Source: Clostridia bacterium
GTDB taxonomy: Bacteria > Bacillota > Clostridia > Oscillospirales > CAG-272
Length of the DNA: 46,575 nucleotides
Assembly: GCA_017631855.1 (NCBI GenBank)
Contig: JAGBSP010000042.1
Location: forward strand, 1 to 46,575
Direction: 5' to 3'
Position 1 is the stretch's first letter; every line of letters starts with the position of its first letter. This document shows positions 4,743-46,575 of the stretch, in pieces. The notes beneath the pieces were generated by a model. It had not been told where the DNA came from. It saw only the letters and a program-made list of their open reading frames with translations, and searched no databases. A program made the position numbers and the translations under genes.

Positions 4743-5975
4743 ATGGGAATCAAATCAATCCTCTCGAATTCGGATACCCGAAAAAAAATTATGGGACTCG
4801 TTTACAGTGTCGGCGCGATCGCGATCTTTAACGCCGTCATTCAATTTTTTGTCTACCCTCAACTAGAAAAGGAAATGGGTGCCGCCGCCTTCGGCATCGC
4901 TCTTTCTGTTCTCTCCATCATCGCCATTGCCAATAATGCTTGCGGATATGCCGCAGGCTGTGCGCGTCTTCTCGGCTCGGAGAAGGAGCAGAACAACGGC
5001 GACTATAATCTGATGCTCATTCTGATGGGTGTCATCTGCGCCGTGATCGGTACGGTGTACCTTTACACCTTAGACCTCTTCACTCCGCTAAACGTTTTTC
5101 TCTATTGCCTTTTGAGCTTCTTTACGATGCTCCGCTACTATTCCGAAACCGAATTTAAGATCAAAGCAGATTTCTTCCGCTATATGATCTACTATATTCT
5201 GATCTCGGTCGGATATATCCTCGGCGTATTCGTTTTCAAGCTTTCGGGACAGTGGATGCTCACACTTCTTGCGGGCGAGGTGCTCTGCTTTATCTACGCC
5301 GTCATCCGAAGCAGACTTTACCGTCCCCCCTTCTTTAAGATCACAAAGCAGTTTAAGGGCATTTTCTCCAGTATCTCCTTCCTGCTTTTCTCAACCCTGT
5401 TGGAAAACACGACGCTCCATGCCGACAAGATCGTTCTTCTTGCGATCACACAGGACGGAGAGGTCGTTACCACCTACTATATTGCGTCCCTAGTCGGAAA
5501 GGTTGTGGCTATGCTGACCACCCCGATCAATGCCATCGTACTGAGCTATCTTGTGAAATACAAGGGAGCGCTGACCAAGAAGCTTTGGTCGATCGTCGCG
5601 CTTGCCGTCAGCATCGGCGCTGCGGTCGTCTTCCTCGGCTGTCTGATTGTTTCTCCCTTTGTCATCAAGCTACTTTACAGCGAAAGCTATGCTGAAGCGA
5701 TGTCCTATCTCGTTCCCGCCATTCTCGGACAGGTGCTCTATTTCGCATCGGGCGTGTTGGTCAATACTCTGCTCCGCTTCAAGGGTGAGCGCGACCAGTT
5801 CATCTTCAACGCCATCTACGCTGTGGAATTTTTCGTATGCGTTGCCATCGGAACAGCACTCGGCGGTCTTTGGGGCTTTGCTCTGGCAGTCGTCCTCGCC
5901 AACGCCATCCGCTTTGTTGCGGCGCTGATCAAGGGCTACGTCGGCAAAAAGCAGTTAGAGCCCACCCCCAATTAA
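4743..5975 (+). CDS. Polysaccharide flippase, MOP superfamily (Wzx/MATE-like)
   Basis: From ATG 4743 the protein has 410 residues and about twelve hydrophobic helices with the spacing of oligosaccharide flippases. Polar residues and small GxxxG-like runs lie inside the helices, and a charged cytoplasmic loop follows helix 6. Such proteins move undecaprenyl-linked glycans to the outer face of the membrane. The start at 4743 is preferred because GGAG (4724-4727) lies upstream and the promoter makes an earlier start unlikely; the spacing of 15 bases is long, so translation may depend on leader folding. It heads an operon with the transaminase-like gene (24-bp gap) and the ROK repressor. Confidence 0.83.
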   Translation: MGIKSILSNSDTRKKIMGLVYSVGAIAIFNAVIQFFVYPQLEKEMGAAAFGIALSVLSIIAIANNACGYAAGCARLLGSEKEQNNGDYNLMLILMGVICAVIGTVYLYTLDLFTPLNVFLYCLLSFFTMLRYYSETEFKIKADFFRYMIYYILISVGYILGVFVFKLSGQWMLTLLAGEVLCFIYAVIRSRLYRPPFFKITKQFKGIFSSISFLLFSTLLENTTLHADKIVLLAITQDGEVVTTYYIASLVGKVVAMLTTPINAIVLSYLVKYKGALTKKLWSIVALAVSIGAAVVFLGCLIVSPFVIKLLYSESYAEAMSYLVPAILGQVLYFASGVLVNTLLRFKGERDQFIFNAIYAVEFFVCVAIGTALGGLWGFALAVVLANAIRFVAALIKGYVGKKQLEPTPN

Positions 5976-39786: not shown

Positions 39787-40293
39787 TCATTCTATATATT
39801 CATACAGCTTAGCAGGATAGCATTTCAGCGCACTTTTTGAATTTCGGTCACGAACAACCATATAAAAAACATCTCGCTCGGCAGTTATTTGATACCAAGT
39901 CGAATTTACTTCAATCTCGCCGCACTGATAAAAATGGATCACTTTTTTTATAAGTCTTGTGTCTCGCCTTCTTATGGTCTTTTCTTCTTTATAAACAACC
40001 TCATCGGTAATAACAAAAAAATTTGAATTGTTCTGTCCGTTACGCCTCGGTATCAAAAGAGATATAAAGAAAAGCAACGGTAAAAGGCAAATAAATACAC
40101 ACGCAAAGAAGATGACGTAACCTATAGCACCTATTTCACTGTTTTTTAATCCTAAAAAATAAACTGCCAAAAGCACACTACTCCCCACAAACATGTAAAC
40201 AAGCGCTACGATGAGTAAAATACGTGAACTCTTTTTATCTTCAGTTTGGAGATCTTTTGCAATCGTCTCCTTGGTAATAACATTCTTTGTCAT
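39787..40293 (-). CDS. Two-helix membrane protein of unknown function, paralogue of 38946-39518
   Basis: The 168-residue protein starts MTKNVITKETIAKDLQ, has two long hydrophobic helices (about residues 24-48 and 56-82) and a basic soluble C-terminal domain of beta character (FFVITDEVVYKEEK, STWYQITAERDVFYMVV) ending in YEYIE. It resembles its neighbour at 38946-39518 in layout rather than in close sequence, so the pair is an old duplication or two members of one family. It has its own promoter and terminator. No function can be assigned. Confidence 0.7.
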   Translation of the reverse strand: MTKNVITKETIAKDLQTEDKKSSRILLIVALVYMFVGSSVLLAVYFLGLKNSEIGAIGYVIFFACVFICLLPLLFFISLLIPRRNGQNNSNFFVITDEVVYKEEKTIRRRDTRLIKKVIHFYQCGEIEVNSTWYQITAERDVFYMVVRDRNSKSALKCYPAKLYEYIE

Positions 40294-40321
40294 GTGTATA
40301 TGTCACCGCCTTTCTGTGTTT

Positions 40322-40350
40322 ATTATATCACACCTTTGCGGGAATGTAAA
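40322..40350 (-). promoter_or_regulatory. Promoter of the 39787-40293 gene
   Basis: Leftward TTTACA (40345-40350), 17-bp spacer, TATAAT (40322-40327), nearly identical in context to 39542-39570. Confidence 0.72.
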
Positions 40351-40358
40351 GTAAATTT

Positions 40359-40512
40359 TGTAGGGACAGGCGTCCCCGACTGTCCATTTGGGGCACTAGG
40401 ATCCTCGCATTTGTTTCGCACGCTCTGCGCCTTATCGTAGGGCGGTGCCTTGGTGCCGCTAAAAACAAAGGTACTGGCATAATAAAGCGGCGGGAGTAAA
40501 CCCCCGCCCTAC
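40359..40512. repeat. REPIN-like element E
   Basis: GTAG hairpins at 40360-40386 (+), 40437-40460 (+) and 40488-40512 (-), with a GGGGCACTAGGATCCTCGC leader between the first two. The first hairpin has GGACAG pairing with CTGTCC, a compensatory change against GGACCG/CGGTCC in element A. Confidence 0.75.
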
Positions 40513-40617
40513 AAAAATTATTCGATCTCCGAGCGGCGAATGCGAACCTAATTCCGCTGCGGCTACGCCTTGCGGAGCAAGGCGCGAAGCTCCGATGCTC
40601 CGACGAGGCAAAAACAT
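40513..40617. other. GC-rich gene-free stretch with nested palindromes
   Basis: Contains GCCTTGC-GGA-GCAAGGC (40567-40583) and several GCTCCG/CGGAGC words that can pair with each other. No coding frame is seen. It may be a decayed repeat copy. Confidence 0.4.
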
Positions 40618-40641
40618 AAGAGGGGCGTTTTTACCCCTCTT
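40618..40641. terminator. Terminator of the SipW/TasA-like operon
   Basis: AAGAGGGG pairs with CCCCTCTT across an 8-base loop, 33 bp after the last stop of the leftward operon. Confidence 0.8.
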
Positions 40642-40673
40642 GTTGGTTTGTTTTAATTAAATTTCAATCATAG

Positions 40674-42164
40674 TCACTGTTGCTGAGTAAGCGCATCTAT
40701 TCTGATCAAAGCATCATTGACAACGCGGTATAGATCCAACATTGCAGAAGAAAGCTGAGCGACTGTCAGTCCGGAGCTCATAATATGATTTCCGTTCTCG
40801 TCCACGGTATAGTAGCTTGAAAGTCTTATATAAGTCTCGTTGATAAGCTCAATACCAACCCCCGCGTACTCCTTGCTGTCGATCAGTCGTTTTGCGTCGT
40901 TCAAAAGGTTTTGCATGGTGTTCACCGCAACGGGATCGGTTGCCGAAACGATGTTCTTGATGCTGACGTCTTGAGCAACGTTAAAGGAGTATCCGTCAAT
41001 CTTGAATACCTCACCGCCTATCTCAAAGTCGTATCCGTCTATCAAATCGTACGTTGCAGCATCTGCCTTCCAGTTGTCGGTAACGAACGAGCCCGTTCCG
41101 TTTCCGCCGTCATAGGTAACGACGTTTGCTTTACCCGCATACGTAGTACCTATTCTGTACCAGTCACTGATCTGATTTCCGCTTGCGTCTCTGTCACACG
41201 TAAATACTACCGCATATACAGGCACATACGCGCCGGCAGTCGTTAGGGGGTCTATCGTCAGATACAGTGTCATTTCGCATCCGTATCCGCGGAATACTCC
41301 TCCGTTGCTTGAGTTTACGGCGGTATAATCATCACCTGTATATATGTTGCCGTCAAGGTTTTCGTGCTTGATAAGGACGGTCGCGTCCATTTGTTCATCG
41401 CCAACAGTTATTTGCAGCTGTCCCGCAAACAGGGTGTTGACCGCCATAGAGTCTTCACTCGAAGATCCCGTAACGTTTCCTATATAGTTCGACGTCCATT
41501 CCTGACGTCCGTCAAACTTGTTATCCAGAGCATCAATCAGCTGCCCATAGGTTGTTGCCGTGTTCAAGATATTGAGGAACTTATCCTCTACGACTGCAAG
41601 CGCCTCGCGCTCGCCGTCAACGTTGATACCGAACTGGAAGTTTATAAGCGTTCTCCAGTCAGTGTTTTGATTTCTAGACGTACCTACCGTGTAGGTAACT
41701 GTAAAATCCAGAGTTTCTCCCGGTCCGACCTTCTTTTCCTCAGCCGAAAGATTCGCCAAGGAGCAACGGACACTTATATTGTTGTTTCCGTTTTGAGTCG
41801 AAACGTATTGATTTCCGTTATAGCCGTCGAGGTCATTCTGAAAATAGATCCCTCTGTAAGAATAGGTCAATTCGGTATTATTCAAAACGGTAACGTTGTA
41901 AGTAACCGTTCCTACGTAGTTACGGCTTTGTCTGCTGATAGTCGAATCGACGGTCGTGGTATATGGCAGATGGCTGACCGTATTTTTGTCAACTCTTGAG
42001 GTGCTGTTCGTGGAAACAGCAGTAATAAACAATCCCGACGGGATATCCGCCTTGGCTCTGCCGCTTATGATCAGCACCTCGCTGATTTCTGCGTATCCTA
42101 TACACGTAAATACGCACATAAAGGAGAGTACGATACCTAATAGCGTTCTTACCCACGTTTTCAT
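40674..42164 (-). CDS. Large secreted protein with SipW-type signal peptide
   Basis: From ATG 42164 the protein has 496 residues. The N-terminus (residues 1-24 hydrophobic, then CIGYAEISEVLIISGRAKA) matches the SipW-dependent signal of TasA/camelysin proteins and resembles the small protein at 45121-45642. The mature part is Asn-, Thr- and Ser-rich with beta-strand character (SRNYVGTVTYNVTVLNNTEL, VGPGETLDFTVTYTVG), and the last 90 residues are helical. There is no LPXTG motif or C-terminal anchor, so it is probably a secreted matrix or fibre component. The start is preferred over an ATG nine codons upstream because AGGAG lies before it. Last gene of the operon. Confidence 0.78.
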   Translation of the reverse strand: MKTWVRTLLGIVLSFMCVFTCIGYAEISEVLIISGRAKADIPSGLFITAVSTNSTSRVDKNTVSHLPYTTTVDSTISRQSRNYVGTVTYNVTVLNNTELTYSYRGIYFQNDLDGYNGNQYVSTQNGNNNISVRCSLANLSAEEKKVGPGETLDFTVTYTVGTSRNQNTDWRTLINFQFGINVDGEREALAVVEDKFLNILNTATTYGQLIDALDNKFDGRQEWTSNYIGNVTGSSSEDSMAVNTLFAGQLQITVGDEQMDATVLIKHENLDGNIYTGDDYTAVNSSNGGVFRGYGCEMTLYLTIDPLTTAGAYVPVYAVVFTCDRDASGNQISDWYRIGTTYAGKANVVTYDGGNGTGSFVTDNWKADAATYDLIDGYDFEIGGEVFKIDGYSFNVAQDVSIKNIVSATDPVAVNTMQNLLNDAKRLIDSKEYAGVGIELINETYIRLSSYYTVDENGNHIMSSGLTVAQLSSAMLDLYRVVNDALIRIDALTQQQ

Positions 42165-42194
42165 TATGCGTACTCTCCTTTCCTTGATCATTGT

Positions 42195-43919
42195 TTAAAC
42201 TTCTTTGTTTTCTTCATCCTCGGGATTGATCATCGCGGTAAAGATCTTCTCTGCCTTGCGTTTGACAACTCCTATGATCTTTTTGAGAGGGCGATCAAGC
42301 TCTGCGGGATCTATTCTGTAATTTCCGCGCGCAACCTCTGCCTCTCTGACGACATCCTTGTCGCTATGCTCATCTCTTGTGGGAACGAGAACGATATCTC
42401 CCTCGTCGATCGCGTTTCCATCGGGATCGTAACGATAGGTCTTATGCGTTCTTTCTTCCCAGAAGATGTCGATTGCCTCTACTGTGTTTTCGTCTGTGAT
42501 TTCTTCGTCTGCCGTTGGAATGGAAGCGATGATCTCCTCGATCTCGTCCTCAATCTCCTCCTCGATCTCCTCGGGCTCTTCCTCGGCTTCAACGATCTCG
42601 GGTACTTCCTCGATCTCTTCTACCGTTGCGATCACCTCGGGAGCTTCTTCTCCCTCAGCCTCGACCTCGATCTCAGGTTCTTCTATAACCGTTTCGATCT
42701 CTGCCTCAGGCTCGGGCTCAGGCTCGGGTGCGGGAGGAGTGGGATTATTTACCACTACCTTGACAACAGGTCTGACAACATTTGTGATGTTGGGCTTAAC
42801 GATGGTCGTAGGAACCGACTCCGGCTTTGCCTCGGTCTCGGGTTCTACGTAACCTTCAACCTCTATCTTATATACGTAAAGAAGCTTACTGTCTGTTGGT
42901 ATCATGAATTTTGCGCAGGTCTTATCTGCGTTTTCGTACATAAGAATGGGAGCTTGAATGGTATCGCGTATTTCAAGCATCTCCTCGAAGGTATCGACCA
43001 TAATGATCTGATATCCGCACGTCTGGAAAAGATTGTTGATCCTTTGGATATAGGACTTATACTGCGAAAGAATCTTCTTAACGCGTGCCGTGTAGGTGAT
43101 ATCAGGAGTTCTCGTGAAGTAAATGAACGCTACAAGAAGTAGCACCATGATCACATCTAACACACCGAGTACGATAGCGGTAGTCTTGAACGCTTCGCTT
43201 CCAACACCTCGTGTGCAAGCGATCATTTTCGCTTCTTCACTGGGAACAGCAGAGGTCATTTGGATATTGACTGTCTTTGTTGTAAGAGGAATACGAAGCT
43301 CGGAAGTATATGTGTCGACCGCACTTCCTGTAAAAGCATCACAATCACTGAGAACATCAACCTCAAGCGTCACGATAATATTGCTCGTAGTACTCTTCAG
43401 ATCGTAAGTATCAAGAAAATTATTCGCGAGATCGTTGTATTCGTCATAATTGAGAACAACTATCTCATTGATCTTTAACCTGTTTGAGCTGCTCTGAGCA
43501 AGATTCTGCTTATTGACCAGCTCGCGCTCGGGATTGAAGATCGCAACGTCTGACGTATCATCCATTATCTCAAGCCTTGATTTGATCGAGTAAGAGTAGC
43601 GATAATTGACGTCATCGGTATCCATATCGATCTCATAGCTGAAATCGGCTATGATCTTGTCTATGAGTGAAGCAACGTAAGACTGATCCTTGCCAAGATA
43701 CGTTTGCTCAAAGAATTCATTTTCTTTAAGGAAAACGTTATAATCAATGCTTCCGCCTTCGCGGTAGCCGATATAATATTTACTCTTGAGCTGCACGGCA
43801 ACGATCGATGAGATCAGCACAGCGAGTGTCAGTATAACAACTATCACAGACTGCACAAATATCCATTTTTCGCGATTTTTTCGGTACGCGGCGCGTTTGT
43901 TCTTTTCTTTTTCCGACAT
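42195..43919 (-). CDS. DUF5305-like two-helix membrane protein with an acidic tail
   Basis: The 574-residue protein has a short basic N-terminus, a membrane helix at about residues 22-45, an extracytoplasmic beta-rich domain of about 200 residues (YIGYREGGSIDYNVFLKEN, LEVDVLSDCDAFTGSAVDTYTSELRIPL) and a second helix at about 252-272. The cytoplasmic part then has a domain to about residue 355 and a Glu/Pro/Ile/Val-rich low-complexity stretch of about 110 residues. The first half fits DUF5305, a family found with signal peptidases in SipW-type loci; I am moderately sure. It may hold or guide the secreted proteins during assembly. Ribosome binding site AAGGAGG; third gene of the operon. Confidence 0.7.
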   Translation of the reverse strand: MSEKEKNKRAAYRKNREKWIFVQSVIVVILTLAVLISSIVAVQLKSKYYIGYREGGSIDYNVFLKENEFFEQTYLGKDQSYVASLIDKIIADFSYEIDMDTDDVNYRYSYSIKSRLEIMDDTSDVAIFNPERELVNKQNLAQSSSNRLKINEIVVLNYDEYNDLANNFLDTYDLKSTTSNIIVTLEVDVLSDCDAFTGSAVDTYTSELRIPLTTKTVNIQMTSAVPSEEAKMIACTRGVGSEAFKTTAIVLGVLDVIMVLLLVAFIYFTRTPDITYTARVKKILSQYKSYIQRINNLFQTCGYQIIMVDTFEEMLEIRDTIQAPILMYENADKTCAKFMIPTDSKLLYVYKIEVEGYVEPETEAKPESVPTTIVKPNITNVVRPVVKVVVNNPTPPAPEPEPEPEAEIETVIEEPEIEVEAEGEEAPEVIATVEEIEEVPEIVEAEEEPEEIEEEIEDEIEEIIASIPTADEEITDENTVEAIDIFWEERTHKTYRYDPDGNAIDEGDIVLVPTRDEHSDKDVVREAEVARGNYRIDPAELDRPLKKIIGVVKRKAEKIFTAMINPEDEENKEV

Positions 43920-43948
43920 TCAGTAAACCTCCTTTCTTCAAAATTTAC

Positions 43949-45073
43949 TTAACTGCCTGAAAGCAGTTCTCTGAGCCATAGGGTAGGATATCCCACAAAG
44001 GCGACCTTGATGTCTGTCAGACCAACAATATCCGCATCTACTCGGTAACCACCGTCACGGTCATTATTGACGTCCCCTTTTGTGTAGTATCGGTTTTCCC
44101 CTCCTATGTTCTTTATCTCCACAACTCTGTGGACGGTTCTTCTGTCGTTTTCTTGAAAGACGATTACTTGTCCTTCTTTAATTTCTTGGTCCTCATATCT
44201 TTCGTAGATGATCATATCACCCTTGTTTATCTCGCCCGTCATACTCTCGGTCGCGATGACCAAAGCGCCGAATCGGAAGCGGCAGGATATCAGCATAGCA
44301 ACTGAGATCACGATAAGTATGGCAACGAACATACATACGACAGATAGCTTTTTTCCTTTTTGTACCGCGTTTTTCTTTTTATTTTCAAAAAGTGCGGATA
44401 CAAGCGCGAGTATCACTATCGGAAGGAATATCTTAATGCAAGCGAACAGAGCGTCCGGTATCGCTGTGATATTTGGAAGAAAGTAAGCATACAGCGACGT
44501 AATAAGACGAAACGCGATGTTCGGAAGCATACCGAAGCGACGTGATACGTAATGGTAATAAATGTTTGCGATAGCGGTGGGAAACAGCGTCATAGCAACC
44601 ATATCCATAAACAGATTCAGGTTTTTAATACCCGCAAGGTTGGAAACCGCGAGAACCTCCGCAAGTACGCAGGATAAAAACACGAATACGCTTGCGAAAT
44701 GATCCTTTTGCGCTAACATCACAGCTCGGATCATCTCTGTGGTAATAATAATTGCCGCCATTGGCAGAATGACTGTGAGGAAGATATTTGAGCTTACAAA
44801 ATAGGGATTTTTGTAAAATCCAAAGGATATTCCTGTCATCTGAGTAAGTACCGCAAATATTACGGCAAGCACCGACGAGAGCAGTAAAACCTCTTTTTTA
44901 TTAATGGAGAGAGAGCCTCTCTTTTTGACCAAAAGACAGGTGACTGCCGTCATCGGGATCAAAATACAAGCAGTTAATATTCTGCTGCTTTTGACTCCTA
45001 TAAAGAGTGCGGCAAAGAGGACCGCAAATATTAAGATAGAAATGCTGCAAAGAACCTTTTTGTCTTTTGTCAT
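43949..45073 (-). CDS. SipW-like signal peptidase I with polytopic N-terminal domain
   Basis: From ATG 45073 (AGGAGG 7 bases upstream) the protein has 374 residues. The first 250 residues contain about eight hydrophobic helices. A further helix at about 255-275 leads into a SipW/ER-type signal peptidase: VIATESMTGEINKGDMIIYE holds the catalytic Ser, RRTVHRVVEI the catalytic His (in place of the Lys of ordinary bacterial SPase I), and YYTKGDVNNDRDGG the conserved GD box. Typical SipW proteins are about 190 residues, so the N-terminal domain is an addition. It should mature the two TasA-type proteins in the same operon, releasing them outside the membrane. Confidence 0.85.
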   Translation of the reverse strand: MTKDKKVLCSISILIFAVLFAALFIGVKSSRILTACILIPMTAVTCLLVKKRGSLSINKKEVLLLSSVLAVIFAVLTQMTGISFGFYKNPYFVSSNIFLTVILPMAAIIITTEMIRAVMLAQKDHFASVFVFLSCVLAEVLAVSNLAGIKNLNLFMDMVAMTLFPTAIANIYYHYVSRRFGMLPNIAFRLITSLYAYFLPNITAIPDALFACIKIFLPIVILALVSALFENKKKNAVQKGKKLSVVCMFVAILIVISVAMLISCRFRFGALVIATESMTGEINKGDMIIYERYEDQEIKEGQVIVFQENDRRTVHRVVEIKNIGGENRYYTKGDVNNDRDGGYRVDADIVGLTDIKVAFVGYPTLWLRELLSGS

Positions 45074-45120
45074 TTGCGGTCCTCCTTTCATAATATTACT
45101 GCGCTAAGATAAGCTTTAAT

Positions 45121-45642
45121 TTACGGTGCAACGTAAGGTACAGCCTCAGCTGTAATCATGAACGTAGCAGTCTCGATAATGTCAGAAACCTTGATCAGCT
45201 CTACGGTAACACTAACATTCGCTGTTTCGTTAACGTCAAGCACGGTCTTATCCCAATCACCAACGGTAAGCTTAAAGTACTCGTTGTTGAAATCGGTTGT
45301 GAGTTCATGGAGCTCAACAATAACGTTACTGTAGTTCTTTACAACGTAATTGAAGGTTACGCTGTCGCCTACGACTGTAAGTCCGTCAACAGCGGGAGCA
45401 ACTGTACGTCCGCCGGGCTCACCGGGGTTAGAAAGATCAAGGATCTTAGCTACGTCAGCATCATCGTCTGCACCGGAAACAGCAGATTCAGAGGTTGACT
45501 CAAACTTAACTACAAACTCAACGGCATCGTTCTCGATAGTACCGTTCCAAAGCAATGTCTCGGATACAGCTGCATAACCGATACCAAGGCAAAGTGCTGC
45601 AACGAGCAGCAGGGAGATAATTAATGTTCTTCTTTTTTTCAT
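45121..45642 (-). CDS. Small TasA/camelysin-like secreted protein
   Basis: The 173-residue protein has a SipW-type N-terminus: KKRR, a hydrophobic core and GIGYAAVSETLLWNGTIEND, close to the pattern around the cleavage site of TasA and camelysin. The mature part of about 145 residues is acidic and beta-rich, with an Asp-rich stretch (GADDDADVAKIL) and a VNETANVSVTVELIKVSD segment typical of the immunoglobulin-like core of such matrix proteins. In Bacillus TasA forms extracellular fibres of the biofilm; a comparable role here is inferred from signal and operon. First gene of the operon, with AAAGGAG before ATG and a SARP-type promoter upstream. Confidence 0.8.
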   Translation of the reverse strand: MKKRRTLIISLLLVAALCLGIGYAAVSETLLWNGTIENDAVEFVVKFESTSESAVSGADDDADVAKILDLSNPGEPGGRTVAPAVDGLTVVGDSVTFNYVVKNYSNVIVELHELTTDFNNEYFKLTVGDWDKTVLDVNETANVSVTVELIKVSDIIETATFMITAEAVPYVAP

Positions 45643-45737
45643 GATTTGTTTCTCCTTTACAGAAAAATAAATAATTTCGAGCGTTCCCTAACCGCCCGTC
45701 TTTGCCAAAACTCGACAGTTTGAGCTTTGTATGCACT

Positions 45738-45770
45738 ATTCTATCATCCAATGACTACACCGTGACTACA
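45738..45770 (-). promoter_or_regulatory. Promoter of the SipW/TasA-like operon with SARP-type direct repeats
   Basis: Leftward, TGTAGTCA occurs at 45763-45770 and again at 45752-45759, an 11-bp period. Exactly 8 bp separate the second copy from TAGAAT (45738-45743), a fair -10 box. The sequence at the -35 position (GTCACG) is poor. This is the arrangement recognised by SARP-type activators, one of which is encoded immediately upstream. Confidence 0.7.
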
Positions 45771-45795
45771 AAAGGAAAATTTTTTCAAAAAAATT

Positions 45796-45826
45796 TCGGC
45801 ACTCAAGCATTTAGCCCGAGTGCCGA
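45796..45826 (-). terminator. Terminator of the response-regulator gene
   Basis: TCGGCACTC pairs with GAGTGCCGA; a run of seven Ts follows in the leftward direction. It isolates the regulator from the operon's promoter. Confidence 0.88.
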
Positions 45827-45831
45827 TGCGT

Positions 45832-46575
45832 TTATTTGATTTTTTGCATTTGATTTTCAAGATAACCAACCGTAAACTCCGCCCATGAATATGCACTCAT
45901 ATACTGCCCCGTGAAGGAATTGATCGCCCGAACGTCCCCTTCAAGAAAACGGTAATAATCACAATCCACGATTTTCGTGTTCACAAGAATACCTTGTCTG
46001 TTTTTCAAAATCAGATCCTTAACTTCAACCGAATGTAAGCTCTTGACAAGACTCGCGATATACACTTGCAAATTTTTTTGCTTCGTTCGGTCGTAGTCCT
46101 CGTCCTCCCAAAGCATCGCTGCAAGCTCTGCATAGGTTGCCGAAGTTCCGCGCTTATCTACAAGATACGCAAGTATCTCTTTCGCTTGTTTTCTCTCAAA
46201 TTTTAACGGCTCACCGTCCACAAATATGTCGAAATTTCCAAAGGTGAGTATCTTGATTCTCTTTTCGTTGCTCCACTCAATTGGATTGCGCAGATTTTCA
46301 AGCTCTGTCTTTACCGCCTCGGGTGTCACGGGCTTCATTATGTATCCACTCATACGAAGGTCGATGCCTTCCTTCATATACTCCGAAAATCCCGTGGCAA
46401 ATACGATATTCACCTTTGGATTAAGCAGTTTTAACTCACGAGCAAGCTCAACGCCGTTCATCTCAGGCATATGTATATCGAGAAAGGCAACGTCTATTTT
46501 GTTTTCCGTTGCGGTCTGTAAGGCACTTCGCACGTCGCGACAAAGATACACAGTAGAGCCGCCTGCTACCTCTTC
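45832..46575 (-). CDS. Response regulator with SARP-type winged helix (5' end outside window)
   Basis: The frame is open to the window edge; 247 residues are visible and the first receiver strand with its acidic pair is missing. DVAFLDIHMPEMNG holds the phospho-accepting Asp and GYIMKPVTPEAV the conserved Lys. After a linker, ILTFGNFDIFVDGEPLKFERKQAKEILAYLVDKRG through LQVYIASLVKSL is an OmpR/SARP-type winged helix, and VDCDYYRFLEGD through SWAEFTVGYL is a short remnant of the bacterial transcriptional-activation domain. A sensor kinase would be expected further upstream. The gene lies directly upstream of the SipW/TasA-like operon, whose promoter carries SARP-type repeats, so it is the likely activator. 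Confidence 0.85.
   Translation of the reverse strand, partial: EEVAGGSTVYLCRDVRSALQTATENKIDVAFLDIHMPEMNGVELARELKLLNPKVNIVFATGFSEYMKEGIDLRMSGYIMKPVTPEAVKTELENLRNPIEWSNEKRIKILTFGNFDIFVDGEPLKFERKQAKEILAYLVDKRGTSATYAELAAMLWEDEDYDRTKQKNLQVYIASLVKSLHSVEVKDLILKNRQGILVNTKIVDCDYYRFLEGDVRAINSFTGQYMSAYSWAEFTVGYLENQMQKIK

Follow-up and report, generated by a model that had tools for sequence, protein, structure and literature searches.

A response regulator encoded at the end of a clostridial contig and the LytS-type histidine kinase encoded ahead of it very probably form a two-component system dedicated to a single operon, in which the phosphorylated regulator would bind a pair of direct repeats, replace the -35 contact and activate transcription. 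Comparison among related genomes gives good support to the conservation of these repeats, their fixed geometry, the lack of a -35 element, the co-occurrence of the regulator and the link between its wider family and repeats of 11-bp period. The whole stretch of DNA analysed, 46,575 nucleotides in length, is referred to here as the window; it is the whole of contig C48 of a draft genome of 1.83 Mb (85.5% complete, 67 contigs).

Organisation of the locus

The module occupies the final 6 kb of the window and lies entirely on the minus strand, on which the response regulator gene is followed by an intrinsic terminator, the repeat promoter, a leader of about 92 nt and four genes (Table 1). Alignment to an orthologue places the N-terminal 20 residues of the regulator beyond the contig end. 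A second contig, C64, shares an exact 141-bp end overlap with the window contig and holds the first codons of the regulator and the kinase gene that precedes them; in genome G003, kinase, regulator, repeats and operon are all found on a single contig. The kinase on C64 is of the LytS/YesM type, matching His_kinase (PF06580) at 76.3 bits and HATPase at 47.3 bits, with membrane segments that were read by eye from the sequence.

Table 1. Features of the module, listed in minus-strand order
Feature	Position	Strand	Remarks
Response regulator gene	45832..46575	-	truncated by contig end; PF00072 63.8 bits; PF00486 23.5 bits (cut-off 26.2)
Intrinsic terminator at the regulator gene/promoter boundary	45796..45826	-	13-pair stem and T tract
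Direct repeat 1, TGTAGTCA	45763..45770	-	bases 1-7 the same in all 10 promoters
Direct repeat 2, TGTAGTCA, period 11	45752..45759	-	all 8 bases identical in 10 promoters
8-bp spacer TTGGATGA, repeat 2 to -10	45744-45751	-	
-10 box TAGAAT, TGA-extended	45738..45743	-	8 bp from repeat 2
Predicted 5' leader, two stem-loops and RBS hairpin	45643..45734	-	MFE folds of 10 leaders
Small secreted TasA-like protein, operon gene 1	45121..45642	-	signal peptide MKKRRTLIISLLLVAALCLGIGYAA conserved in relatives
Signal peptidase I (archaeal/SipW kind, C-terminal) with hydrophobic N-terminal part	43949..45091	-	TIGR02228, PF10502
DUF5305 protein	42195..43919	-	PF17231 39 bits, cut-off 29
Second, larger secreted protein	40674..42191	-	ORF and homologues in relatives

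The repeat promoter and its conservation

Between the regulator gene and the SipW/TasA-like operon the minus strand reads TGTAGTCA-CGG-TGTAGTCA, 8 bp, TAGAAT. The 19-bp pair, allowing up to two mismatches, occurs once in the 46.6-kb window, as against a mean of 0.01 after shuffling, and when the 189-bp intergenic stretch was resampled 20,000 times with a first-order Markov model, 8 of the sequences had an exact 8-mer pair of period 11 ahead of a -10-like hexamer. The best -35-like hexamer, sought 15-19 bp from the -10 box, is a 4/6 match, and the -10 box itself is extended (TGA-TAGAAT), a feature that the sequence-only reading of this DNA, made before the present analysis, had lacked. A search of the whole assembly (85.5% complete) finds a single site at one mismatch or fewer in the organism's own genome, and for this reason the system looks like a dedicated switch for one operon.

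Orthologues of the regulator were sought by protein, independently of the repeats, and were found at 67% identity or more in nine genomes including its own; the full-length orthologues are 67-99% identical. The pair TGTAGTC-N4-TGTAGTCA lies upstream of the TasA-like gene in all eight orthologue genomes with readable promoter DNA, namely G000 (gene split over two contigs), G003, G020, G029, G005, G183, G196 and G327. The ninth, G176, is uncounted, its contig ending 68 nt past the regulator gene. Absence of the repeats from relatives, which the sequence-only reading had named as counting against its proposal, was thus looked for and not seen. In G005 the regulator gene lies beyond the other end of the operon, in the opposite orientation and some 4.9 kb away from the pair, which is still found at the operon promoter. 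Across 30 genomes of the genus there are seven exact sites, all at this operon and one per genome; four one-mismatch sites, in four genomes, were taken as chance, a reversed control pattern giving seven hits.

Ten repeat promoters are available in all, from the eight orthologue genomes, G026 and G014, three of the ten having come from the wider family scan. Their features agree with what had been claimed for the window: the coordinates of two repeats 11 bp apart and ending exactly 8 bp before the -10 box are confirmed, and the -10 box, which was outside the selection pattern, stands exactly 8 bp past repeat 2 in every one. The poor -35 also recurs, with best hexamers of 3-4/6 at 15-19 bp in all ten and a TTGAC(A/T) promoter in none (250 bp), while a TGn extension of the -10 is present in nine. 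Within the site, 17 of 22 columns are identical, compared with 1 of 38 in the adjoining upstream DNA, which has a mean pairwise identity of 43%; 15 of the 17, however, belong to the pattern by which the promoters were selected, and the fair figure for conservation of the repeats is the 8/8 given above. The geometry is that of SARP promoters, as had been proposed. The published rule is of direct repeats spaced 11 (or 22) bp, with the 3' repeat 8 bp from the -10 box and a poor -35 element, and the AfsR box is centred at -29.5 (PMC10936776); all ten promoters have the 11-bp period and the 8-bp distance.

G026 has the pair and the operon, but all that was found of its regulator is a stretch of 52 residues (92% identity) preceded by unrelated genes, in a genome that is 78% complete. 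This locus (L060, around 5297-5455) has no kinase gene, and the remnant of the regulator is followed by an intact repeat promoter; the genes ahead of it are, on our reading, a transporter and a hydrolase, and the arrangement reflects either recent loss or mis-assembly. In G014 the pair and operon stand at a contig end, with no regulator sequence within the 326 nt upstream.

Of the proteins in the module, the regulator shows the highest conservation in seven of the eight relatives that have it, the remnant in G026 being counted; the exception is G029, where DUF5305 identity is one point above that of the regulator. In other genera the regulator keeps 86-91% identity, the kinase being 56-69% and the peptidase 57-59% identical. 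For three such loci (L092, L093 and L095) the regulator value exceeds that of certain copies inside the genus (67-70%), a hint that the module may have been transferred horizontally.

Related operons without the repeats

A TasA-like gene is present in 17 of the 59 genomes searched, seven with the repeats and ten, carrying 11 such genes, without them, and a SipW homologue follows all 11 of the repeat-less genes. No orthologue of the regulator was found in the ten repeat-less genomes, where the best matches have E >= 1e-21, although several of these genomes are incomplete (55-98%). In the 250 bp before the start codon, TTGAC(A/T) with a -10 box at 16-18 bp is found for 7 of the 11 repeat-less operons and for none of the ten with repeats, resampling giving expectations of 0.17 and 0.08, respectively. 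The Fisher p value is 0.004 for this table and 0.0007 for an intact regulator (8/10 with repeats, 0/10 without); both values are optimistic, the genomes being related and three of the ten with repeats having come from the family scan. The simplest reading is that the repeats, together with a bound protein, would stand in for the -35 element.

Nature of the regulator

The regulator comprises a receiver, a winged helix of the OmpR/SARP kind and a short C-terminal tail with FTGQYMSAYSWAEFT. In the receiver, which matches PF00072, D53, K101 and VDDE are invariant over 12 sequences (alignment A2). The Trans_reg_C model PF00486 gives 21.2-24.5 bits for the window protein and three orthologues, below its cut-off of 26.2; 35 of 64 family members have a match to it at E <= 0.01 (alignment A4, 64 sequences). 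The Pfam BTAD domain, in contrast, is matched by none of the 64 at that threshold, and is absent among the 25 families shown, out of 38, for 56 C-terminal halves (alignment A5) at E <= 1. Profile matches in the PDB were to EmbR (0.0026), the OmpR-type protein 1p2f (0.0027) and AfsR (0.14), and the EmbR alignment continues through a shared CDxxRF segment that we take to be the start of the EmbR activation domain. The tail carries a conserved motif, FxGxYMxxYSWAE, and the C-terminal half, winged helix included, spans 129-155 residues in the 53 relatives measured (53 of 55 kept, lengths outside 90-220 being dropped). A structure model of the regulator, built on a five-row alignment, had a mean pLDDT of 44 and was too poor to be used in the fold search.

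The sequence-only reading had described this protein as a receiver joined to a SARP-type winged helix and a truncated activation domain. Receiver, winged helix and short tail are all borne out; membership of the SARP family is not, given that BTAD is undetected in 64 sequences and that EmbR and an OmpR-type protein match almost equally. The term 'SARP-type' is partly supported, as a statement of promoter geometry and possible distant kinship and not of membership, and a fair description of the protein would be a receiver-driven variant between the SARP and OmpR/PhoB types.

The 11-bp period in the wider family

Paralogous regulators have repeats of period 11 before a -10 box in three of the seven loci examined, with the words TTGTAAC, TGTGGCACTT and TTGTCATAG. 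At least 554 relatives were confirmed in one collection scan, of which 80 named loci were taken and reduced to 55 at 75% identity; these named relatives are mostly Clostridia, with Treponema, Gordonibacter, Desulfovibrio and others also represented. Within 400 bp downstream of the regulator gene, exact 7-mer repeats occur at period 11 in 15 of 53 loci (those of the 55 with at least 150 nt downstream) and in 0-5 at other periods from 8 to 30. When 8-mer repeats with up to one mismatch were required to be followed 5-10 bp later by a -10 box, again in the 400 bp after the gene, period 11 gave 14 of 55 loci and 21 other periods gave 0-2, with L098 (68 nt), a near-copy of the window's regulator, and L124 (149 nt) retained despite holding little downstream DNA. 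No excess at period 11 was found in three control regions (farther downstream, antisense and upstream). The remaining 41 of the 55 loci have no period-11 site near the regulator gene.

A second set gave 6 of 17 loci at period 11 and 0-1 at other periods, compared with 1 of 17 and 0 for control regulators of other kinds. L192 (200-aa frame) was left out of the 29 loci from which this set derives, L178 and L179 coincide with L014 and L013, the site in L179 is doubtful, and some of the 17 are perhaps the same species as named loci. Eleven long-frame loci had no period-11 site, but their frames overrun the 1.5-kb flanks and hardly any downstream DNA is covered, so they do not serve as a control. 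Long open frames of 667-781 aa with the same winged helix and tail, presumably of another architecture, are seen in L194, L196-L198 and L200-L206. Over whole loci, with genes masked and both strands read, period 11 accounts for 12 sites near the regulator gene and 30 elsewhere, as against 0-2 and 1-8 at other periods; at least six of the distant sites are near-copies of TGTTGGACAT-TTGTTGGACA, and a few of the 30 are a single repeat counted once per strand or have a near site opposite them (L123, L127, L168).

Of the 78 loci with room for one, 50 have a LytS-type kinase homologue immediately upstream. Similarity of the recognition helix tracks similarity of the repeat only modestly and is confounded by phylogeny (Mantel r 0.18, 26 loci, 74 of 5000 permutations as high). 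Helices resembling QKQLDVxIRSL mostly go with (T)TGGACA, KNLQVYxASLVK with TGTAGTCA, and those resembling NQTQT mostly with GTCCTTT or TGTGCTTT; there are exceptions, L117 and L127 among them.

These comparisons suggest that a large class of response regulators, found in gut Clostridia and beyond, having a receiver, a SARP-like winged helix and a vestigial activation domain and mostly accompanied by a LytS-type kinase, probably activates transcription from a tandem 11-bp repeat about 8 bp from the -10 box. Each would use words of its own, apparently read by the recognition helix, and regulons could be proposed from sequence where the site adjoins the gene, in about a quarter of cases. With this positional rule, a binding site and a target that can be put to the test are proposed at once for some of the at least 554 relatives. 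The named loci include gut Faecalibacterium and Hungatella, where the rule could help to decode how expression of secreted proteins is controlled.

Eight genes that follow such sites were searched against Pfam and comprise two Cache diguanylate cyclases, one carbohydrate phosphorylase, one DUF3592 protein, one gene without a match and three very large proteins whose N-termini resemble leaders and whose domain matches are weak. The two cyclases, Cache-GGDEF proteins that follow repeat promoters in Clostridioides difficile (L112:8746-11085) and Hungatella effluvii (L106:8585-10528, where Cache falls below its cut-off), suggest a link to c-di-GMP signalling.

The target operon and its leader

The peptidase encoded by the second gene of the operon scores 82.4 bits against TIGR02228 (cut-off 51.85) and 48.6 against the NCBIfam SipW equivalog, a Bacillus model with a cut-off of 190, and neither secreted protein matches a known family, Pfam, NCBIfam and PDB sequences giving no hit to TasA or camelysin. 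The operon had been called SipW/TasA-like; this holds for its layout and for the archaeal-type peptidase model, and not for the SipW equivalog or for the TasA/camelysin family. A homologue of the larger secreted protein (29-93% identical) follows the DUF5305 gene in eight of nine relatives, the contig of the ninth, G020, ending inside the DUF5305 gene. The 80 named loci, which span 3-16 kb each, yielded no homologue of SipW, the TasA-like protein or DUF5305, so that the secreted-protein operon seems to be a speciality of the window's own family. A function in the extracellular matrix is a possibility suggested by the signal-peptidase gene and by the similar signal peptides of the small secreted proteins. 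The sequence-only reading had envisaged a two-component switch for matrix production built on SARP logic; comparison supports the link between regulator and repeats and the promoter geometry, while the matrix part finds no TasA/camelysin match to sustain it.

The leaders of ten relatives (the window, L056, L057, L058, L059, L060, L092, L093, L095 and L097) have minimum-free-energy folds with two stem-loops and a hairpin over the ribosome-binding site, with z values of -1.7 to -5.7. UAGGGA is retained in the second loop of nine of the ten (not in G005), even though the stem sequence is quite different in G029 and G196. Rfam gives nothing at gathering score over the whole window, and four weak hits over 40000-46575 were judged to be chance. 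The leader is possibly a cis-regulatory RNA.

How might the repeats be read?

We envisage that the LytS-type membrane kinase senses a signal and phosphorylates the regulator, two molecules of which would then be placed head to tail on the TGTAGTCA pair, one DNA turn apart. Given a start near 45731, the 22-bp box would be centred at about -28.5, and the regulator would occupy the position of sigma's -35 contact, recruiting or stabilising RNA polymerase on the extended -10. The secreted-protein/signal-peptidase operon would thereby be switched on, the terminator separating it from the regulator gene. Direct binding, dependence on phosphorylation, activation rather than repression and the extracellular function are all points that we infer, and the extended -10 could allow some activator-independent transcription.

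The regulator could instead bind the repeats as an ordinary activator of the OmpR/PhoB type, with tandem winged helices head to tail on sigma and no tie to SARPs. We hold this to be possible, if not what we would favour, since direct repeats are used in this way by PhoP of M. tuberculosis (7-bp repeats with 4-bp spacers; PMC4832192), PF00486 is matched by 35 of 64 members, 1p2f scores virtually as well as EmbR and no BTAD is seen. The alignment to EmbR that runs on through CDxxRF, the start of its activation domain, and the conserved tail FxGxYMxxYSWAE nevertheless speak for something more than an OmpR/PhoB protein, as does a box so near the -10 (8 bp, centre near -29), which is the placement reported for AfsR (PMC10936776).

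Repression is unlikely. Here the regulator would sit on a pair that overlaps the -35 region of a promoter with an extended -10 box until the signal released it, and the TGn extension in nine of ten promoters would suit this; but the -35 element is missing from all ten and present in 7 of 11 operons of regulator-less relatives, and both SARPs (PMC10936776) and BsaR (PMC7395162) are activators. Still less probable is that the repeats are the site of some other protein, with the regulator gene lying nearby by coincidence. The perfect pair kept in G026 beside a mere remnant of the regulator, and the TGTAGTCA pairs that adjoin integrase genes, fit such a view, against which stand the pair in 8/8 readable orthologue genomes, the absence of any orthologue from 10/10 pair-less genomes, the enrichment of period 11 next to regulator genes of the family, and G005, where the pair is kept despite an altered gene order. 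We conclude that activation by the phosphorylated regulator from the position of the -35 contact best describes this promoter.

Comparison with known systems

The system shares with SARPs the 11-bp repeats, the 8 bp to the -10 box and the poor -35, and EmbR is its best PDB profile match by a hair. It differs in having an N-terminal receiver, a dedicated kinase and little room for an activation domain, and in occurring in Clostridia with a secreted-protein operon. SARP activators include AfsR, ActII-ORF4 and DnrI, and the repeat words of the window's family differ from the actinobacterial heptamer. The positional rule suggests that promoters of SARP-like layout can be operated by a protein that is under receiver control and has next to no activation domain. 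Response regulators of COG3947 ('SAPR') have the arrangement REC-wHTH-BTAD; the receiver and SARP-like winged helix are common to both, whereas BTAD is undetected in the window's family, and the papers found to mention COG3947 do not, by title and abstract, concern Clostridia. With OmpR/PhoB regulators the protein has in common a receiver, a winged helix and tandem repeats of 11-bp period, and it is set apart by a PF00486 score below cut-off (in the window protein and three orthologues), a LytS-type kinase and an extra conserved tail; its sites are also nearer the -10 than pho boxes.

A functional parallel, BsaS/BsaR of Clostridium perfringens, is likewise a two-component system encoded with a SipW/secreted-polymer operon, a likeness drawn from description and not from sequence. 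According to PMC7395162, BsaS/BsaR is required for and encoded with the sipW-bsaABCRSD operon, and purified BsaR binds the sipW promoter; the bsa regulator genes, in contrast to those described here, are part of the operon and are transcribed from its promoter. Two-component control of a sipW operon by direct promoter binding thus has a precedent in C. perfringens (PMC7395162). What seems to be new, to judge from the open-access papers searched, is the rule for the binding site and how widely it applies; no described target, site or account of this regulator class was found among them.

Repeat pairs away from the module

A scan of 295 genomes of the taxonomic family found 13 TGTAGTCA-pair sites in 12 genomes. 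Six lie in the module (G000, G029, G005, G327, G196 and G183) and seven outside it (one each in G303, G186, G121, G316 and G200 and two, overlapping, in G136), two of the latter beside integrase genes. Period-11 repeats of TGTAGTCA stand directly at the ends of tyrosine integrase genes, identified with Pfam, at L089:9409 and L090:9862 on the plus strand, and those at L088:9801 and L091:2668 are in two mutually similar intergenic places. A run of three TGTAGTCA copies at 11-bp period is found at L094:6728-6757 on the minus strand. There are tRNA genes about 400 nt on in L090 and about 100 nt away in L094, with none in L089. It is possible that these off-module repeats are integrase arm-binding sites that share the same word.
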